This document shows, piece after piece, positions 16,061 through 25,301 of a stretch of DNA of 34,031 nucleotides (positions within the stretch are counted from its first letter, which is position 1; the number at the start of each line of letters is the position of its first letter). The translations under genes were made by a program, and so were the position numbers. The notes beneath the pieces are model-generated. The model was not told the DNA's origin. It saw only the letters and a program-made list of their open reading frames with translations, and made no database searches. Origin of the DNA: Spirochaetaceae bacterium (GTDB taxonomy: Bacteria; Spirochaetota; Spirochaetia; DSM-27196; SLAA01); assembly GCA_003556605.1 (NCBI GenBank), contig PWQX01000195.1, positions 1 through 34,031 of the forward strand, written 5' to 3'.

Positions 16061-17281
16061 ATGATTCGAATGAACGAACATTTCCGCAAGCTGCAGTCAT
16101 CGTACCTGTTCAGTGAAATCGCCCAGAAAGTTGCGGCGTTCCAAGGGGCCAACCCTGATACTAACGTCATCAAGCTCGGCATCGGCGACGTCACCCGCCC
16201 GCTGCCGCCAAGCATCGTTACGCGCTTTCAGGAAGCGGTTGCCGAGATGGGCAGCTACGGGTCGTTCCGCGGTTACGGCCCGGAACAAGGCTATACGTTT
16301 CTACGAGAAGCGATCGCAACCCACGATTTTGAGGCGCGCGGAATGACCATTACTCCCGATGAGATCTTCATCAGTGACGGCACCAAGTGCGATATCGGTA
16401 ACTTCCAAGAGCTGTTTGCCGAAGACGTGCGCGTTGCAATCGGCGACCCGGTGTACCCGGTGTACTTAGACACCAACGTCATGGCCGGCCGCGCCGGTGA
16501 GTATCAGCACGGCCGTTACACCGGCATCCATTATCTCGCCTCCACTGCCGAGAACCGCTACGTCCCGGCACCGCCGGATCAGCCGCTTGACCTGATCTAC
16601 CTGTGCTTTCCGAACAACCCAACAGGCGCTACCGCCTCGCGGACTGAGCTTGCCGAGTGGGTCGCCTACGCTCGTCGCCACCGCGCCTTGATTCTATTCG
16701 ACGCCGCTTACGAGGCCTTTATTCAAGACCCCGAGATCCCACACTCGATTTTTGAGATTGAAGGTGCCGGCGAAGTTGCGGTTGAGTTCCGCAGCTTTTC
16801 GAAGACCGCCGGTTTCACCGGCACCCGCTGCGCCTACACCATCATACCGAAGGCCGTGCACGTCTACGACGGTAACGGCGAACGGCACGGGCTCCACGCA
16901 CTGTGGAACCGCCGCCATAGCACCAAGTTCAACGGTGTCGCCTACCCGGTGCAGCGCGCGGCCGAAGCTCGCTACAGCGAGACCGGCAAACGCGAGGTTG
17001 CTGAGCTTGTTTCCTATTACCTCGAGAATGCCCGCATCATCCGTAGCGAGGTCAGCAGTATGGGATATCGCTGTACCGGCGTTGACAACTCGCCATACAT
17101 CTGGGTTCAGACCGGCGGAAGCGCATGGGAGTTTTTCGATCAGATTCTATCTCGCGCCGGAGTAGTCGTGACGCCCGGCTTAGGGTTTGGACCTTCAGGA
17201 GAGGGCCACGTGCGGATCAGCGCCTTCAACGACCGCGAAAAGGTGTCTGAAGCGATGCAACGAATACGCGCTGCGCTGTAG
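16061..17281 (+). CDS. dapL: LL-diaminopimelate aminotransferase
   Basis: 'YLFSEIAQKVAAFQGANPDTNVIKLGIGDVTRPLP', 'SDGTKCDIGNFQELF', 'YLCFPNNPTGA', 'FRSFSKTAGFTGTRCAYT' (PLP lysine), 'FGPSGEGHVRISAFN'. Confidence 0.92.
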   Translation: MIRMNEHFRKLQSSYLFSEIAQKVAAFQGANPDTNVIKLGIGDVTRPLPPSIVTRFQEAVAEMGSYGSFRGYGPEQGYTFLREAIATHDFEARGMTITPDEIFISDGTKCDIGNFQELFAEDVRVAIGDPVYPVYLDTNVMAGRAGEYQHGRYTGIHYLASTAENRYVPAPPDQPLDLIYLCFPNNPTGATASRTELAEWVAYARRHRALILFDAAYEAFIQDPEIPHSIFEIEGAGEVAVEFRSFSKTAGFTGTRCAYTIIPKAVHVYDGNGERHGLHALWNRRHSTKFNGVAYPVQRAAEARYSETGKREVAELVSYYLENARIIRSEVSSMGYRCTGVDNSPYIWVQTGGSAWEFFDQILSRAGVVVTPGLGFGPSGEGHVRISAFNDREKVSEAMQRIRAAL

Positions 17282-17296
17282 CCGGCAACCGGTGCC

Positions 17297-18139
17297 TCAG
17301 TACAGGTGCCCCATCTTGGCTTTTTTCGTAGCAAGGTAGAAGCGATTATGCTCGGTAGGCGCTGCTACCACCGGAATACGCCCCGTAACCCGCACACCGT
17401 CGCCGGAAAGCTTCTTTATCTTGTCGGGATTGTTGCTCATGAGCTCGACCGAGGCGATACCGAGCATATCGAGAATGCGGGCGGCAACACGATAGTCGCG
17501 CGCTTCAGCCGGATACCCTAACGCCTGGTTTGCTTCAACCGTGTCGAGTCCGAGATCTTGCAGGCGGTAGGCCTTGAGCTTGTTCAACAATCCTATTCCA
17601 CGGCCTTCCTGTCGCATGTAGACAATTGCGCCGCGTTCGGCCGCACCCAGATACCGTAAGGCGAACTCAAGCTGTTCACGGCAGTCGCAGCGCAGTGATC
17701 CCCACACGTCTCCGGTATGGCACTCCGAGTGCACCCGGACGGGACAATGCTCCGCCGCGCGCACCTCGCCTTTTACAACTGCGGTATGCTCGAGCCCGGT
17801 ACTCCGTTCTAGAAAACCGTATAACATGAAAGCACCGTAGCGAGTCGGAAAGTCTACACTGACGACAAGCTCTACCGCGGCGTTGGTGTCTGAATCGACG
17901 CCGCGCGCCGAACCGGGCGGAGCAACCGCCGCAACCTCTCTGAACACGCCGGGATCCTTCTTTATTCGTTGTATCACGTCTTCGGCACGGGCAGCGCTAT
18001 GGCCGTTGCCGTTGCCGTTGCCGTTGCCGTGACCATCACCATCGACCCTTGTTCGGGCAGCGGTGTCTACAGCGTCCTCGTCGGCTGCGCTGTATGGTAA
18101 AGCTCCCCCGGAGGCGGCAATTTCACTGTGTTGATCCAT
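17297..18139 (-). CDS. ribA: GTP cyclohydrolase II with low-complexity N-terminal extension
   Basis: 'VHSECHTGDVWGSLRCDCREQL' zinc motif, 'YMRQEGRGIGLLNKLKAYRLQD', 'DTVEANQALG', 'NNPDKIKKL'. No DHBP synthase (RibB) domain present. Confidence 0.92.
   Translation of the reverse strand: MDQHSEIAASGGALPYSAADEDAVDTAARTRVDGDGHGNGNGNGNGHSAARAEDVIQRIKKDPGVFREVAAVAPPGSARGVDSDTNAAVELVVSVDFPTRYGAFMLYGFLERSTGLEHTAVVKGEVRAAEHCPVRVHSECHTGDVWGSLRCDCREQLEFALRYLGAAERGAIVYMRQEGRGIGLLNKLKAYRLQDLGLDTVEANQALGYPAEARDYRVAARILDMLGIASVELMSNNPDKIKKLSGDGVRVTGRIPVVAAPTEHNRFYLATKKAKMGHLY
18000..18036. repeat. Short hexanucleotide-type tandem repeat (GCCGTT/CCGTTG)n within the ribA N-terminal extension
   Basis: 'ggccgttgccgttgccgttgccgttgccgtgaccatcaccat' encodes GDGHGNGNGNGNGH on the minus strand. 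Confidence 0.7.
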
Positions 18140-18181
18140 CGTACTTGACTTTCCTACACGAGTATTTACATTGACCTAGTT

Positions 18182-18211
18182 ACAATAGCCATGAATACCC
18201 ACAAAAGTCAA
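18182..18211 (-). promoter_or_regulatory. Candidate promoter for ribA
   Basis: Minus strand TTGACT (18206-18211), 18-nt spacer, TATTGT (18182-18187). Confidence 0.4.
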
Positions 18212-18320
18212 ACATCCGCGTTTTGGTTAGGTTTTTTCCGGGGCACCACAAATCACAGATCGTCGCCGCCCGCCTTTGTTGCGAAGTCGCCGCACCGACC
18301 GATACCGAGGTCAGCGCCCC

Positions 18321-18350
18321 TTGAGCCCCGGGTGTTCTTCCGGCTAAAAT
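18321..18350 (+). promoter_or_regulatory. Candidate promoter for the RibD-C reductase operon
   Basis: TTGAGC (18321-18326), 18-nt spacer, TAAAAT (18345-18350). GGAGAG precedes ATG 18373. Confidence 0.4.
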
Positions 18351-18372
18351 CGCCCCACGATCCGGAGAGTTC

Positions 18373-19038
18373 ATGCCCCACGATATCGCCGTAGTGATCG
18401 GTTACGCACAGAGCCTCGACGGGAACGTCGCAACTTCAACCGGAGACTCGCGTTGGATCTCGGGGCCTGAGAGCCTTGAGTACGCCCACACGCTGCGCCG
18501 CGATAACGACGCAATCCTGGTGGGAATCGGAACTGTGCTGCGCGATGATCCGTTACTGACGTGTCGGCTGCCGCAGGCGCGCTCGCCGCACCGCGTAGTG
18601 CTTGACTCACAGCTGCGAGTTCCCTTGAACGCACAACTTGTGCGTACCGCCGCTGAAGTGCCGACCACGGTGTTCACTACGCATGCGCGTCTTGAAACCG
18701 AGGATGACATTGTACGGCGCCTGCGCCAAGCCGGAGTAGTGCTCAGCCCTACCCGTAGCGATGCTTCGGGTGCGCTCGATCTAAGCGAGGTACTCCGGCA
18801 CCTGCGGGCCTCCGGACGCAGCAGCGTGTTTGTTGAAGGCGGGGGAAGAATCATCACCAGTTTTCTCAGTGCCCAACTCGTTGATGAGCTTCACCTTGTG
18901 ATCGCCCCGATCCTGATCGGTGGCGGAGTCTCGGCGGTCGGTGATCTGGGAGTGCGTTCGCTTGCCGACGCGTTCCGGTTTCGCACCGTTGCGACAGAGC
19001 CACTGGGGGAGGACCTGCTGTGGAAGATGACTCGCTGA
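18373..19038 (+). CDS. Stand-alone RibD C-terminal (pyrimidine reductase / DHFR-like) family protein
   Basis: 'GYAQSLDGNVATSTGDSRWISGPESLEYAHTLRRDNDAILVGIGTVLRDDPLLTCRL', 'VFVEGGGRIITSFLSAQLVDELHLVIAPILIGGG'. No deaminase domain. Confidence 0.88.
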   Translation: MPHDIAVVIGYAQSLDGNVATSTGDSRWISGPESLEYAHTLRRDNDAILVGIGTVLRDDPLLTCRLPQARSPHRVVLDSQLRVPLNAQLVRTAAEVPTTVFTTHARLETEDDIVRRLRQAGVVLSPTRSDASGALDLSEVLRHLRASGRSSVFVEGGGRIITSFLSAQLVDELHLVIAPILIGGGVSAVGDLGVRSLADAFRFRTVATEPLGEDLLWKMTR

Positions 19039-20051
19039 GCTCGGCCTCGCAGACCGCCCGTGCGATGTATTTCACCGCTCCCCGCACAGTGGAAGTCCGT
19101 ACCATCGATATTCGACCTCCAGCGAGCTTTCAAGACAACGAAACGCAGTTGGTGCAATCGCGGCTGGCTGCCGTCAGTCACGGGAGCGAGCTCTTATTCT
19201 TTCGCGATGAGATGCCGTCACGCATTGAGGGCGAGACGATCACGGCGCTCGGCAACACCGGCCGGTATCCCCTCTGCTACGGCTACATGAACGTAGGGGT
19301 AACATCTGACCGGCGACGAGTGTTCGCGTTTCAACCGCATCAGGACCGGTTTTGGGCGACCGCTGAGCAGTTGATCGAGCTTCCCGACGCTGTGTCGGAT
19401 GACGACGCGGTTCTGTTGCCGAGCGTAGAGACGGCGCTCAGCGTTGTACACGACGCAGCACCCTTGGTGGGTGAGACGGTTGCGGTATTCGGACAAGGGG
19501 TGATCGGGCTGCTGGTATCGGAGGTGCTGAAGCGCGCGGGGGTCGTTGAGGTCGTAAGCGTTGACCCGCTCGAGCAGCGCCGAGCCTGCTCCCGGAAGCT
19601 GGGCTGTATGAGCTTCACACCGGCCGACTCTGCGCTGACGGAGGCGATCCTGGACCTGACCAAGGGACGCGGTGCGGATATCGCTATCAACACCAGCGCA
19701 AGTCAGGCCGCGCTGCAGCACGCCATCAACCTGACCGCGTTGCACGGCACCGTGGTGGAGGCATCGTGGTACGGGCGGAAACCTGTTGAGCTTACCCTGG
19801 GTGAAGCCTTTCATCGCCGCCGACTGACGCTCAAGAGCAGTCAGGTCTCGCGGGTTGACCCCAGATTGGGCGACCGCTGGAGTAAACAAAGGAGACTGGA
19901 GACAGCGCTGCGCCTCTGCGGCGAGCTGCGTCCCGGCAAGTATATTTCACACCGGTATCCGCTGGAACAGGCTCAGCAGGCGTTTGAGCTACTTGATAAT
20001 CATCCGCAGCAGGTGCTACAGATAGTGCTGCATATGGAACGCAAGGAGTAG
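19020..20051 (+). CDS. MDR-superfamily (zinc-binding alcohol dehydrogenase-like) oxidoreductase
   Basis: Rossmann 'GETVAVFGQGVIGLLVSEVLKRAGVVEVVSVDPLEQRR', 'TKGRGADIAINTSASQAALQHAINLTALHGTVVEASWYG'. Start either GTG 19020 (19-nt overlap with the previous gene) or ATG 19065. Confidence 0.8.
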   Translation: MEDDSLSSASQTARAMYFTAPRTVEVRTIDIRPPASFQDNETQLVQSRLAAVSHGSELLFFRDEMPSRIEGETITALGNTGRYPLCYGYMNVGVTSDRRRVFAFQPHQDRFWATAEQLIELPDAVSDDDAVLLPSVETALSVVHDAAPLVGETVAVFGQGVIGLLVSEVLKRAGVVEVVSVDPLEQRRACSRKLGCMSFTPADSALTEAILDLTKGRGADIAINTSASQAALQHAINLTALHGTVVEASWYGRKPVELTLGEAFHRRRLTLKSSQVSRVDPRLGDRWSKQRRLETALRLCGELRPGKYISHRYPLEQAQQAFELLDNHPQQVLQIVLHMERKE

Positions 20052-20058
20052 CGGTGCA

Positions 20059-20430
20059 ATGTACAGAACCGCAGTGATTCGACCGCTCAACGCGCATCAT
20101 TACCTGCAGGGAGACTTCGGTCGCGAATCAGAGCCGCACACCCATCCGTACCAGGTGGAGTGGATTCGCCAGAACCGTGAGCTCGATGAAAACGGCTTTG
20201 CAACCGATATCGCGGCGATGGAGCGAACGCTTGAAATGGTGTTAGAGCAGATCGATAACCGGCTGCTAAACGACTTGCCGTTCTTCCACGAGCGCCAGAC
20301 CAGCCTCGAAAACGTCGCGCGATATCTCGCCGAACGGCTTGACGGGGAGCTTCCGCAACCGGGCTCTCGTACCGAAATCAAGATCTGGGAATCGGCGACG
20401 GCGTGGGCCTCGTACGAGCGTGACTCTTGA
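20059..20430 (+). CDS. 6-pyruvoyl-tetrahydropterin synthase / QueD-family-like protein
   Basis: 'NAHHYL' and 'EPHTHPYQVEW' (zinc His positions), 'FATDIAAMERTLEMVLEQIDNRLLNDLP', 'QTSLENVARYLAERL', 'EIKIWESATAWASYE'. AAGGAG upstream. Confidence 0.8.
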   Translation: MYRTAVIRPLNAHHYLQGDFGRESEPHTHPYQVEWIRQNRELDENGFATDIAAMERTLEMVLEQIDNRLLNDLPFFHERQTSLENVARYLAERLDGELPQPGSRTEIKIWESATAWASYERDS

Positions 20431-21458
20431 CGCCGACTCTGGCAACCCCCCCGAGCAAGAATCAGAAGACCGGCGGCTACATCTATAATGCGCGGATCGC
20501 TGCGATCTTGGGACGCCGAGGCCTGCTGCGGCATGAGTTCGTCCGGCCTGAAGATATCGACACGTGGATTCTGCGCCGCGCGGAGTCGCAGCGCGGCGCC
20601 GACCACCCGGCGCCCGTAATACTCGACAGCTTATACATCAACTGCGCCGACCGCTTGGCGGCGGTGCGCGTGCCGACCGCCGAGGCGGGCCAGCGCTGGA
20701 TTCTACTCGCGCACTTATTGCCTTCCCAAGAGACGAACGGTCCCGGCGAGCGCGGCTGTGAGGCTACCATCCTGCCCTTGTTCGATGCGGCAATCACACC
20801 CAGCCGGCATATGCGCGAGCTCCTGAACAGCCGCGGACTGCCGGCAGAAGCGCTCGCGGTTTGTCCCCCCGGGACCGAGCTGCCTCCCAAACCGGCTGCA
20901 CCCGATCCGGCGCAGCCGCTCCAGGTGCTCACGATCGCGAGCTGGATACCACGCAAGAACCTGGAAGCCGTATTGGACGCGCTTGAGCAATGCCGCGAGC
21001 TTGCTTGGCACTGGAACATCGTAGGCTTAGCGGATCACAACACCGAATACGTTCGGCAGTTGCTCCTTCGCATCGCAAACAGCCCCGTCGGCGGCCGTGT
21101 TACGTGTCACGGCGTGCTCGATGCTCCCGCCTTGCAGAGGCTCTGGAGCCGCACTGCGCTGTTTGCGCTTGCCACACGGTTCGAGAGTTACGGCATGGTG
21201 TTCGCTGAAGCGCTCAGCTACGGCATCCCGGTGGTGGCGCCGCGCACGGGCGCCGTACCGGAGATCGTCGACAGCGGCGCAACAGGTATTCTGTACGACC
21301 TCGACTGTCCCGCGCTGTTAGCCCAAGCCATGCGCGAGTTGCTTAGCGATCAACGCTTCCGCGCGCGGCTCGCACGCGCGGCCCGCGCCGCCGCGTGCAA
21401 GTTGCCCACATGGGAGCAGACGGCCGCCGCCTTCGCGGCGTTCTGCGGTGCCTGCTGA
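20427..21458 (+). CDS. Glycosyltransferase family 4-like
   Basis: TTG start overlaps the PTPS stop. 'GGYIYNARIAAILGRRG', 'SRHMRELLNSRGL', 'VLTIASWIPRKNLEAVLDAL', 'ALATRFESYGMVFAEALSYGIPVVAPRTGAVPEIV'. Confidence 0.85.
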   Translation: MTPTLATPPSKNQKTGGYIYNARIAAILGRRGLLRHEFVRPEDIDTWILRRAESQRGADHPAPVILDSLYINCADRLAAVRVPTAEAGQRWILLAHLLPSQETNGPGERGCEATILPLFDAAITPSRHMRELLNSRGLPAEALAVCPPGTELPPKPAAPDPAQPLQVLTIASWIPRKNLEAVLDALEQCRELAWHWNIVGLADHNTEYVRQLLLRIANSPVGGRVTCHGVLDAPALQRLWSRTALFALATRFESYGMVFAEALSYGIPVVAPRTGAVPEIVDSGATGILYDLDCPALLAQAMRELLSDQRFRARLARAARAAACKLPTWEQTAAAFAAFCGAC

Positions 21459-22713
21459 CGTGGCGGCGCATAAGACCACTTATCGGCATTCGGCCTTTGG
21501 GCTGCTTATTGCCGGCCAAGTCACTTCGAAGCTGGGACACGCGGTATTCTTAATTGTTCTTACGTTGTATCTCAAACAGCTTACCGACTCGGCGCGTGTT
21601 CTCGGGGCGGCGCAGTTTCTTTCGTACCTACCGGCTCTCTTGTTGGGACCGTTCGCCGGTGTGTTGGTTGACCGCTTTGACCGCAAACGCCTGCTCGTGG
21701 GCTCGGATTTGGCACGGGGCGCCGCGATCATGCTCGTTGCTGCAGCCGCCCGTTACGGCGGCGCCGCTACGGTGGTGCTGTTGTTCGTTCTCGCGGCTTT
21801 GGTCAGCATCTGTCAGGCGGTGTTTCTGCCCACGGTACAGGCGCTCTTACCGGACGTGGTTCCGCCGCAGCGGCTACGCAGCCGAAACGCGGTGCGCGGC
21901 GCCGGTGTACAGCTGGCAAACCTGGCCGGGAATGCAGCCGGCGGCATGCTGTTCGCCGCGTTCGGCGGGCCGGTGGTACTGCTGTATACCGGCGTTACCT
22001 TCTTGCTGTCGGCCGCCCAAGAGCAACTGATACGGGTACCGCGCCGGCCCCCACGCGCGCACGCTGCAGGGATTGGAGCACAAACGGTGTCGGCACTGCG
22101 CTACGTGCGAGTAAGACCCGGGGTGGCGGCTGCGGTGGTAACACACGGCGTAGTCGGATTGAGCTTCCCGCCGTTGCTCCTGGCCTTACCATTTGTGGTG
22201 ATGGACGACCTTGGGTTACCGGAGAGCTTTTTCGGGTTCTATCTAGCGGCGGTCTTGGCAGGAGGAATTTTGGGATATCTCTGGTTTGGCAGCATCCGTT
22301 CGCACCGCGTACCGGAGCGCACGCTGTTACTCGCGGGGTTCATGTTGTTGGCTCTTGGAGTCTCCGCCGCAGGTGTGTGGATGCAGCCTATTCCGCTGTT
22401 TCCCGCCTTCACGGCCGCAGGCTTGGGCGCCGGGATGGTGAATCTGGCTTTGGTAACCGCATTACAGCGCAGCACCCCCTCGGCGCGTAGAGGCCGCGTG
22501 TTCGGCCTCTACGAATCAACCGCAGCGGCTGCCTCGGCACTGGGTTTCGCGCTGGCCGGACCGCTGGTAGACCTCTTCCGCGACCGTTTGTCGGTGTTGG
22601 TGCTGGCGGTGGGAATAGCGCTGATACTGTACTGGGCGCGGCTCTTGTGGTCGCCCGCAGTCAAAAAACTGGTTCAATCGCCGGGGGCGAACTCAGCCAG
22701 AGAGTCAATGTAG
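21448..22713 (+). CDS. MFS transporter (EntS/MFS_3-like efflux type)
   Basis: GTG start overlaps the GT end. 12-TM-like hydrophobicity. 'FGLLIAGQVTSKLGHAVFLIVLTLYLKQLT', 'GPFAGVLVDRFDRKRLLVGSDLARG'. Confidence 0.85.
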   Translation: MPADVAAHKTTYRHSAFGLLIAGQVTSKLGHAVFLIVLTLYLKQLTDSARVLGAAQFLSYLPALLLGPFAGVLVDRFDRKRLLVGSDLARGAAIMLVAAAARYGGAATVVLLFVLAALVSICQAVFLPTVQALLPDVVPPQRLRSRNAVRGAGVQLANLAGNAAGGMLFAAFGGPVVLLYTGVTFLLSAAQEQLIRVPRRPPRAHAAGIGAQTVSALRYVRVRPGVAAAVVTHGVVGLSFPPLLLALPFVVMDDLGLPESFFGFYLAAVLAGGILGYLWFGSIRSHRVPERTLLLAGFMLLALGVSAAGVWMQPIPLFPAFTAAGLGAGMVNLALVTALQRSTPSARRGRVFGLYESTAAAASALGFALAGPLVDLFRDRLSVLVLAVGIALILYWARLLWSPAVKKLVQSPGANSARESM

Positions 22714-25301
22714 CTCTCAAAACGCGAATACTCCCCGCGGAGCCGCTCAACCGCCGGAAGCGCGTGCCCAAATTGCTTGGTCCGCGCGGCCTCCTCCAAC
22801 TCGTCAGCCGCGTCACCAAGCGGGAACGCCGCAAGACTGCGCGCGCCGCCCTTGATTGCGTGCGCGCCGAGCCGCACGGTGTCCCAGTCTTCTTCTGCAA
22901 CCGCAATGTCAATACGCTCGAGCTCAGACTCGGTCTGCGTTCGGAACCTGCCGACAACCCGAACAACGACGTCGCGCCGGCCCATGAATGCCGCAACAGC
23001 GGCATCCCAATCAAACACCGGCGAGCCGGCAAGTTTTCCACCGGGAGCGCCGGACCCAACGGTACCGGACCCGGCGGCGGCCACGGCAGACGTGGACTCG
23101 ACAGACGCGGACTCGCCCGCCTGTGTTTCGACATCGGCCGCTCCCCCGGACACAGGGCCATCAACGAGCCCGGCCGGCTCCCCTCCTGCGCCGGTCCATT
23201 CTTGGGCAACCGGAACGCGCTCGGCGCTTAGCAACCAGCGCCGTAACAGCGGGACCACATCTCTATTCCTGAATGGCTTGCTCAAGAAGTCATTCATTCC
23301 GGCATCAAGGCACCGGTCACGCTCGTCGCGAATTGCGTTCGCGGTAACTGCGATAATCGGTACTTTGGAGTTGAACTCGCGAATCGCCCGCGCAGCCTCA
23401 TATCCGTTCAGGCGCGGCATCTGCACGTCCATAAACACGAGGTCGAAAGCTCTTTCGCGTATCAAATCCACCGCCTCCTGTCCATCCGAGGCGACTCGCG
23501 TGCCGTAGCCCATCTTTGTGAGTATCGTCTCGAACAGTTGCTGATTAACCGGATGGTCCTCAGCAACAAGTACCGTATAGTCGCCGGTTGCGGGCTCAGC
23601 CGCGCCGCCCGCAGGCGTTTCCTCCTCATCGAGCTCCTCGAGCTCTTCAACGAGCTCCGCCGCCCCCTCGTCATCGGCGCCGTCTAGCGTCTCAATCCGT
23701 GAGGAGAAAGCGCCTGAGCCGGCGCCATGCTCGCGCTCGTCATCTATTGCGCTGATAACCCAAACTCCCAGCACGCGATTCAACGTGTCGAACAGTACAC
23801 GCCACTTGACCGGCTTGTTGAGGTACCCGCTGAACCATTTCAAGAGCTTCATTTTCGCTTCAGTTGCGCTCTTGCCGGCGGGGCTGAGAAGAATGAGCTT
23901 GGTACCTCTAATCTCCGCATCCGCGTTGACCTCACTGGCAACCTGCCACCCATCCATACCGGTCAAGTCCTGATCAACGAGCGCCACATCAAACGGCCGG
24001 CCCTCTCGCACCGCCGCCCGCAAAGCCTCTATACCCTCTTCTCCGGACCTGACCTTTACAACATCGCCACCCCATTCCCTCACGTAGCGCAACAACACTG
24101 CCGAAGCAACTCGGCTATCATCGATAATCAAAATCCGGCGCCCCTCGCATATGCGTTGCGCCGGCGCCGTATCGCCGAGCCCGTTGCCGGGAGTGCTCAA
24201 AGGAATGCGAAACCAGAACCGAGACCCTTTGCCCACCCGGCTGCTCACACCTAAGCGCCCGTGCATCATCTCGACAAGATTTTTGGAGATCGAAAGCCCC
24301 AAACCGGTGCCTCCGAATCGACGAGTTGTCGAGGAGTCCACCTGTCTGAACGCTTGGAACAGCAGTTCACACTTGTCCCGCGCTATACCGATTCCGGAGT
24401 CTATCACCTCAAAGTGAATGAGGCGCTGCCCGTCGTCCGCCGAGACCGGCCACACGCGTATGATGATATAGCCCTGAGAGGTGAACTTCACCGCGTTATT
24501 GAATAGGTTAACGATAATCTGCCGCAGGCGGACCGGGTCGCCGGAGATCGTCTGCGGAAGCCTGGGGTCGAGAAAGATCACCACCTCCAGCCCTTTCTTA
24601 TGGGCCTCGAGGCTCACCATATCGACCGCATCTTCAGTCATCGTCAGGAGATCAAACTGTATCACCTCCAGCGAGAGCTTGCCGGCTTCTATTTTCGAGA
24701 AGTCAAGGATGTCGTTGATCAGCCCTAACAGTACTTCGGCCGAAAACTGAATCTGCTCGCCGTACTCGCGCTGCTCCGCATCAAGCTGGGTATCAAGTAG
24801 AAGCTCGGCTATTCCGGTAATGGTATGCAGCGGTGTCCTGATCTCGTGGCTCATGTTTGCGAGAAAGGCCGACTTCGTTTTGGTGGCTCTTTCAGCGGTG
24901 TCTTTGGCTTGCTTAAGCCGAATCTCGGTGTTCTTCTGTTCCGACACGTCTTCGATCAGTGCAAAGAGCATCTGCGCATCGGAGCTCGCGCCTGCGGTAG
25001 AGCCGAGCGAAACCTTCCACCAGCGGGACTCGCCCGATACAGCTCTCGGCCTAACCGACAGCTGCCGGGTCTCGGCCGGCTGCCCGTGAACAACAGCGAT
25101 GGCAGCGGCAAGGCGCGAGGCATCCTCTTCGACCACAAAACACATCAGCTCGGCCCCGAGCGGATCGTCAGCCCCTTCACCGAGCAGCTTCACGAAAGCG
25201 TCGTTGCAGTACTCAATCGCCCCGGAAGCTTTGAGAAGAAGCATTCCAATCGGGGAATTGGCGAATGCTGCGCTAAACTGTTGGTTGAATCGTGATTTCA
25301 C
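22674..25301 (-). CDS. Hybrid sensor histidine kinase (PAS-HisKA-HATPase-REC-REC-Hpt)
   Basis: 'FANSPIGMLLLKASGAIEYCNDAFVKLLG' PAS, 'SAFLANMSHEIRTPLHTITGIAELLL' HisKA, 'FGGTGLGLSISKNLVEMMHG', two receivers ('ILIIDDSRVAS...', 'VLVAEDHPVNQQLF...'), 'AHAIKGGARSL' Hpt. Confidence 0.93.
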   Translation of the reverse strand: MKSRFNQQFSAAFANSPIGMLLLKASGAIEYCNDAFVKLLGEGADDPLGAELMCFVVEEDASRLAAAIAVVHGQPAETRQLSVRPRAVSGESRWWKVSLGSTAGASSDAQMLFALIEDVSEQKNTEIRLKQAKDTAERATKTKSAFLANMSHEIRTPLHTITGIAELLLDTQLDAEQREYGEQIQFSAEVLLGLINDILDFSKIEAGKLSLEVIQFDLLTMTEDAVDMVSLEAHKKGLEVVIFLDPRLPQTISGDPVRLRQIIVNLFNNAVKFTSQGYIIIRVWPVSADDGQRLIHFEVIDSGIGIARDKCELLFQAFRQVDSSTTRRFGGTGLGLSISKNLVEMMHGRLGVSSRVGKGSRFWFRIPLSTPGNGLGDTAPAQRICEGRRILIIDDSRVASAVLLRYVREWGGDVVKVRSGEEGIEALRAAVREGRPFDVALVDQDLTGMDGWQVASEVNADAEIRGTKLILLSPAGKSATEAKMKLLKWFSGYLNKPVKWRVLFDTLNRVLGVWVISAIDDEREHGAGSGAFSSRIETLDGADDEGAAELVEELEELDEEETPAGGAAEPATGDYTVLVAEDHPVNQQLFETILTKMGYGTRVASDGQEAVDLIRERAFDLVFMDVQMPRLNGYEAARAIREFNSKVPIIAVTANAIRDERDRCLDAGMNDFLSKPFRNRDVVPLLRRWLLSAERVPVAQEWTGAGGEPAGLVDGPVSGGAADVETQAGESASVESTSAVAAAGSGTVGSGAPGGKLAGSPVFDWDAAVAAFMGRRDVVVRVVGRFRTQTESELERIDIAVAEEDWDTVRLGAHAIKGGARSLAAFPLGDAADELEEAARTKQFGHALPAVERLRGEYSRFESYIDSLAEFAPGD

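Follow-up and report, generated by a model that had tools for sequence, protein, structure and literature searches.

Which product is made by a block of six genes that combines two riboflavin-type enzymes with a dehydrogenase, a protein resembling a pterin enzyme, a glycosyltransferase and a transporter? The block lies in a stretch of 34,031 nucleotides from a Spirochaetaceae bacterium (contig PWQX01000195.1, the whole of which is called the window here), which is one contig of a 3.9-Mb genome. A sequence-only reading had suggested that the block is a candidate pathway of its own, the product of which would be a modified pyrimidine- or pterin-type compound, possibly glycosylated and exported. 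The context of the genes in many genomes supports the separate pathway, whereas export is a lineage-specific feature. The cluster stands for a real, widespread and apparently undescribed pathway, which is conserved and probably leads, separately from riboflavin synthesis, from GTP to a glycosylated pyrimidine or pterin. The features of the locus are as follows:

17297..18139, minus strand: RibA-type GTP cyclohydrolase II (Pfam GTP_cyclohydro2, 207 bits; NCBIfam ribA, 224 bits, over its cut-off)
18140..18372, 233 nt: intergenic region of the divergent RibA / RibD-C pair, with promoter-like sites in both directions
18373..19038, plus strand: RibD C-terminal reductase domain, RibD-C (Pfam RibD_C, 173 bits; NCBIfam ribD_Cterm, 174 bits)
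19020..20051, plus strand: MDR-superfamily dehydrogenase (Pfam ADH_zinc_N, 60 bits)
20059..20430, plus strand: PTPS-like T-fold protein (Pfam PTPS, 83 bits)
20427..21458, plus strand: GT4-family glycosyltransferase (Pfam Glycos_transf_1, 75 bits; Glyco_trans_1_4, 72 bits)
21448..22713, plus strand: efflux-type (H+ antiporter) MFS transporter (Pfam MFS_1, 126 bits; MFS_3, 88 bits)

The Pfam family assignments of all six open reading frames exceed the Pfam cut-offs; NCBIfam TIGR00900 matched the MFS protein with 199 bits, below its cut-off. The six frames and their arrangement were confirmed as first described, with ribA divergent from a tight operon of five plus-strand genes. RibD-C and MDR overlap by 19 nt, a gap of 7 nt separates MDR and PTPS-like, and the overlaps are 4 nt for PTPS-like and GT4 and 11 nt for GT4 and MFS. 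The promoter-like sites at 18321-18350 (plus) and 18211-18182 (minus) are weak evidence, because they were obtained by a consensus scan alone. No known RNA element, e.g., a riboswitch, was matched by Rfam in the window.

Is the cluster simply the source of riboflavin or folate for this organism? A Pfam search of the window proteins detected no deaminase, RibB, RibH or RibE domain in the block, and the RibD-C gene indeed has no deaminase part. All of these functions are encoded on contig C174, which carries ribD (deaminase and reductase), ribE (Lum_binding), ribBA and ribH in a single block, i.e., a complete riboflavin operon. The cluster is therefore not the riboflavin source of the genome, and a riboflavin biosynthesis operon was rejected as its identity. 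FolE2 (GCHY-1, 301 bits) and HPPK are encoded in the same genome, and neither FolE (PF01227) nor a second PTPS-family protein was found in it. The C174 operon also removes the concern that the cluster might be the sole source of RibA and RibD function, and neither for riboflavin nor for folate can the cluster be the only source. The mismatch with riboflavin, folate and queuosine operons was thus verified: the rib domains are absent, FolE2 and HPPK lie elsewhere, and neither the motif nor the neighbors of QueD are present.

Does the gene set occur elsewhere? An MDR alignment scan of named genomes yielded at least 590 confirmed relatives, of which the best 80 were used, together with plasmid loci and relatives. 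The loci, gathered by the MDR alone, numbered 109 after deduplication (34 archaeal and 75 bacterial, some truncated by contig ends), and gene presence was counted for each locus by tblastn and hidden Markov models. The PTPS-like gene was present in 100 and the GT4 gene in 94 of these MDR-selected loci, usually about 0.7 kb and 1.5 kb downstream of the MDR gene, respectively, and on the same strand. RibD-C was found in 71 loci, a methyltransferase in 61, a CDP-alcohol phosphatidyltransferase with intact motif in 52, and RibA in 50. Co-occurrence of the cluster genes is far beyond chance, because the order RibA-RibD-C-MDR-PTPS-GT4-MFS is kept gene for gene in relatives of the same genus and family (the MDR of one genome of the same genus is 63% identical to that of the window). 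The PTPS-like gene was present in all nine genomes searched of the family. Within the phylum, 60 of 295 genomes matched at E <= 1e-20, a number that was not used as prevalence, because weaker matches may be other PTPS paralogues.

A restriction to this locus would have made a separate pathway unlikely; the set is instead carried by at least 11 phyla in both domains, as taken from the record titles. The bacterial phyla are Spirochaetota, Chloroflexota, Actinomycetota, Thermodesulfobacteriota, Myxococcota, Pseudomonadota, Bacillota, Verrucomicrobiota and Calditrichota; the archaeal phyla are Methanobacteriota and Thermoplasmatota, and haloarchaea and methanogens are among the carriers. Carriers that can be cultured include Haloferax larsenii, Haloferax elongans and Methylosinus trichosporium OB3b. 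Annotated plasmids with all or part of the set were found for Agrobacterium, Peteryoungia, Methylosinus, Thiodictyon, Halomicrococcus, Haloarcula, Natronorubrum, Haladaptatus, Streptomyces, Microbacterium and Palleronia. Sinorhizobium plasmids showed no PTPS-like match and were ruled out as carriers. The MFS gene was present in 13 of 111 loci, mainly in the genus and family of the window and close relatives; elsewhere, an S-adenosylmethionine (SAM) methyltransferase gene usually follows GT4.

Several of the genes are fused. RibA and RibD-C are fused in ten loci, of which one is from Methylococcaceae and nine are from Chloroflexota, including a group of five closely related Caldilineaceae; in one fusion locus, L143, RibD-C is in frame only in part. 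Fusions of RibD-C with MDR were found in three loci and of GT4 with the methyltransferase in two (L056, L057). Fused partners usually belong to the same pathway and often catalyze consecutive steps, and thus the fusions indicate that RibA, RibD-C and MDR act together.

At which compound does the pathway leave riboflavin synthesis? Bacterial RibD first deaminates and then reduces 2,5-diamino-6-ribosylamino-4(3H)-pyrimidinone 5'-phosphate (DAROPP), while archaea and fungi reduce first, which yields the 2,5-diamino-6-ribitylamino-pyrimidinone phosphate DARIPP (PMC3631187). It is Lys151 of RibG that selects the deaminated substrate; at this position a Thr is found in fungal RIB7, and the RIB7 mutation T35K shifts the preference from DAROPP to the deaminated AROPP (PMC3631187). 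Alignment revealed that the window RibD-C has a Gly at the Lys151 position and retains the catalytic Asp and Glu. A Lys was found in none of 73 cluster RibD-C (Ser in 40, Thr in 13, Ala in 6, Gln in 5, other residues in the rest), and the catalytic Asp and Glu were each retained in 72. The housekeeping RibD of the same genome has the Lys. The cluster RibD-C proteins thus have the fold, the Asp/Glu pair and the small or polar residue of a DAROPP-reducing enzyme of the archaeal/fungal type, and the window protein is predicted to be a DAROPP-to-DARIPP reductase; it lacks the Lys expected of the reductase of a riboflavin operon. The reductase fold and the catalytic residues are shared with bacterial RibD (RibG), but the deaminase domain and Lys151 are not. 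In the archaeal and fungal riboflavin route (GTP cyclohydrolase III or II, then RIB7/ArfC before deamination) the predicted steps from GTP via DAROPP to DARIPP are the same, and the substrate-selecting position also holds a small residue. In contrast to that route, the cluster has no deaminase, RibB, RibH or RibE and goes on to MDR, PTPS-like and GT4.

RibD-C was present in 71 of 75 bacterial versus none of 34 archaeal loci, a difference that represents about two evolutionary transitions on the tree (a haloarchaeal clade with L130, and two methanogens), not 109 independent events, and the nominal Fisher value of 4e-24 cannot be read as a probability. MDR, PTPS-like and GT4 were equally frequent in both domains. 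A RibD_C protein was encoded somewhere in all 17 archaeal genomes checked. This is most simply explained if housekeeping metabolism provides archaea with DARIPP, so that their clusters need no reductase. The case for DARIPP as the branch point is strong.

How is DAROPP formed? The window RibA is a stand-alone protein without a RibB domain, and it aligned to the E. coli enzyme 2bz0 with E=9e-53. It is predicted to release the deformylated diaminopyrimidine DAROPP, because the zinc cysteines 140/151/153 and Tyr191 (E. coli Tyr105) are intact. The zinc Cys triad was conserved in 52 of 52 cluster RibA and the Tyr in 51 of 52, the window included. The first approximately 85 residues of the window frame (17880-18139, minus strand) are of low complexity (GNGNGNGNGH) and lie upstream of the homology, and the true start may be downstream.

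An exchange of the Tyr for Met was seen only in two Streptomyces loci, L145 (12725-15098) and L187 (12645-14138). Among the bacterial loci examined, these were also the only ones with a creatininase-family gene, located beside the Met-type RibA. In Streptomyces coelicolor, a RibA paralogue that has this Met reportedly stops at the formylated intermediate. The creatininase-family enzyme BrbF of Sinorhizobium deformylates the formylamino-pyrimidine (FAPy) nucleotide to DAROPP (PMC9478397). The pattern suggests that the Streptomyces clusters use a two-step FAPy route of cyclohydrolase and formamidase in Bacteria; since the two loci are related to each other and the pattern was recognized in hindsight, it is a matter of consistency and not a test. 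As proposed for these loci, BrbF is a creatininase-family supplier of DAROPP, but it serves riboflavin synthesis, and the window cluster has no such gene. In five archaeal loci an archaeal cyclohydrolase replaces RibA. Standard RibA, Met-type RibA with creatininase, and archaeal cyclohydrolase are different starts, which would therefore converge on DAROPP. A further variant was seen in rhizobial and roseobacterial loci (L037 6708-7814, L059, L061, L192), the RibA proteins of which are longer, about 345-370 aa, and deviate by an Asp or another residue from the stretch Y-x-R-QEGR, which is otherwise conserved (YLD-QEGRGTG in L037); their activity may be different.

Which reactions could follow? 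The window MDR protein has the MDR fold and an NAD(P) domain, but no Pfam ADH_N match. The family is characterized by the signature S-x-G-[TS]-E ... YGY ... H107 ... SWYG, and Ser replaces the catalytic zinc Cys in 112 of 113 sequences, including that of the window. A zinc-dependent MDR alcohol dehydrogenase was thus ruled out, and the reaction is uncertain.

The PTPS-like protein also deviates from its characterized relatives. The AlphaFold2 model of the window protein is a confident T-fold (pLDDT 97), with 3d7j as the top structure by TM-score (0.90), and 3d7j (SCO6650) was also the best PDB match of the family profile (E=2e-18). The zinc ligands His 14/27/29 and the C-terminal Glu111 are kept, and the position of the PTPS catalytic Cys is occupied by Glu23. 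Across 104 PTPS-like proteins this position is Glu in 86 and Ala in 17, i.e., the Cys is lost family-wide; most members keep the three zinc His, and one branch (9 of 104) lacks one of them. The C-terminal Glu, which by homology anchors the ring, is kept in 101 of 104. A Glu that reads a 2-amino-4-oxo ring would fit a pathway that avoids deamination. The published motifs of PTPS-I, II and III are CxxxHGH, CxxxxxHGH and ExxHGH (PMC5041015). T-fold and, in most members, zinc His are common to QueD and the other PTPS types (COG0720), but the PTPS-like family has the motif ExxxH[ST]H (ESEPHTH in the window) and an unrelated gene neighborhood. PTPS-II and PTPS-III were ruled out by the motif, and QueD (PTPS-I) by the motif, by a score of 42 versus an NCBIfam cut-off of 89 bits, and by the lack of queuosine genes in the neighborhoods. 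The earlier assignment to the family was therefore correct, but not the role as a canonical side-chain enzyme.

By sequence, fold and MDR-PTPS-GT4 neighborhood the window protein belongs to the family of SCO6650 of Streptomyces coelicolor (PDB 3d7j, deposited as uncharacterized), and the gene set recurs in the Streptomyces loci L145 and L187. In contrast to the SCO6650 type, which has HGA and Ala and has lost a zinc ligand, the window protein is of the zinc-keeping subtype (H14, H27, H29) and has Glu in place of the catalytic Cys. Outside the cluster, SCO6650-type PTPS-like proteins are encoded in Streptomyces anthocyanicus and two other Streptomyces (L186, L188, L191), near genes for BTAD regulators, a cupin and MEKHLA-domain proteins.

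The cluster is often accompanied by lipid-type genes. In addition to the CDP-alcohol phosphatidyltransferase, LPG_synthase_TM flippase-like and sulfatase-family genes were found in several loci, and these neighbors suggest lipid attachment or surface display. No cluster-type CDP-alcohol transferase was found in the genome under study, the homologues of which reached at most 68 bits versus 266-282 for cluster members of other species. In a related spirochaete (L065, 3645-14578), the cluster is flanked by all three kinds of genes, and also by a second methyltransferase and a PhoD-like phosphatase; the flank looks like a lipid-modification module.

The following pathway would be in accordance with these results. 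RibA would open GTP to DAROPP, and the stand-alone RibD-C would reduce its ribose without prior deamination to the 2-amino ribityl compound DARIPP, an order given by the known chemistry of RibA and RibD. MDR would act next, most likely by oxidation of a hydroxyl of the ribityl chain. The PTPS-like T-fold might then bind the 2-amino-4-oxo ring and help in a ring-closing or side-chain step, GT4 would add a sugar, and in most other organisms the SAM methyltransferase would methylate the product. PTPS-like and GT4 were placed after the first three enzymes because of the gene order. Confidence is moderate for the order of MDR before PTPS-like and for the glycosylation of a pathway compound by GT4, and it is weak for the exact reactions in which MDR and PTPS-like take part. 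In roughly half of the organisms the CDP-alcohol phosphatidyltransferase, often with the flippase-like protein, may link the product to lipid; in this organism it is probably exported by the MFS protein. The product is best read as a glycosylated pyrimidine that is often also methylated; a pterin of this kind is the more speculative option.

Several observations weigh against this pathway. The catalytic Cys is missing from both MDR and PTPS-like, and with the loss of a zinc His in one branch the role of the latter may be binding only. RibA is missing near the cluster in 25 and RibD-C in 4 of 75 bacterial loci, some of which are on short contigs. The domain difference for RibD-C counts for few transitions, and neither the SAM methyltransferase nor the lipid genes (CDP-alcohol transferase) are in the window block.

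Does the pathway close a pterin ring at all? The product could instead be an open pyrimidine, i.e., a glycosylated ribityl-diaminopyrimidine, possibly linked to phospholipid, which the PTPS-like protein would only bind or position. This is a realistic option, though it falls short of being the expected one. It would explain the missing catalytic Cys and the branch without a zinc His, and the transferase in nearly half of the loci together with LPG_synthase_TM and sulfatase-family genes is in line with it. However, it leaves the MDR, which is universally conserved beside RibD-C, without an obvious role; half of the loci lack the lipid-type genes, and this genome yielded no cluster-type transferase. 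The formation of a pterin ring independent of GTP cyclohydrolase I is possible but rather doubtful. RibA and RibD-C would act as above, and MDR would re-oxidize the 2'-carbon, which would allow closure of the ring to a dihydropterin. From this, PTPS-like, GT4 and the methyltransferase would form a glycosylated, sometimes lipid-anchored pterin, and many bacteria and archaea would produce it. Reasoning from the chemistry, it can be guessed that a 2'-hydroxyl oxidized in this way would yield the 1-deoxy-ketose that also arises in the Amadori step of GTP cyclohydrolase I, and that this ketose would cyclize to a 7,8-dihydroneopterin-type pterin. Pterin glycosides such as cyanopterin are glycosylated, methylated pterins and thus of the kind proposed. 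The difference would be the entry by cyclohydrolase II and RibD-C, not by cyclohydrolase I, by which most biological pterins enter (PMC13259868).

It is very improbable that extra RibA and RibD-C merely raise the flux to flavins or F420 beside unrelated neighbors. Both enzymes are riboflavin-type by family, and duplicated rib genes are common in bacteria. Nevertheless, the genome has its full riboflavin operon, the riboflavin-selecting Lys is lost in 73 of 73 cluster RibD-C, three genomes encode RibD-C fused to MDR, and MDR, PTPS-like and GT4 stay linked also where RibA and RibD-C are absent. It is hardly to be expected either that the cluster is an alternative source of pterin in folate synthesis or of 6-carboxytetrahydropterin in queuosine synthesis: the genome lacks FolE and another PTPS, and the chemistry proposed could yield dihydroneopterin phosphate, but with FolE2 and HPPK folate has an entry of its own, neither synthesis has a step for GT4 or the methyltransferase, and ExxxH[ST]H matches no PTPS-I, II or III motif.

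On both sides the block is adjoined by convergent genes. An LL-diaminopimelate aminotransferase of the DAPAT_plant type (16061-17281, plus strand, 558 bits) lies directly next to ribA, and an 875-aa frame (22674-25301, minus strand), which by eye resembles a hybrid sensor histidine kinase, reaches with its end into the final 40 nt of the MFS gene.

Taken together, the conserved pathway proposed from GTP via DARIPP provides the uncharacterized protein SCO6650, for which a structure has been solved, with a pathway context. A full-text literature search, the coverage of which left out many subscription papers, found no description of such a pathway. The names in public records are misleading, since the PTPS-like protein is listed as 6-carboxytetrahydropterin synthase and MDR as zinc-binding alcohol dehydrogenase. 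The branch-point argument names a substrate and a first enzyme, and this makes the pathway directly testable. A gene set of such breadth across phyla almost certainly makes something useful.

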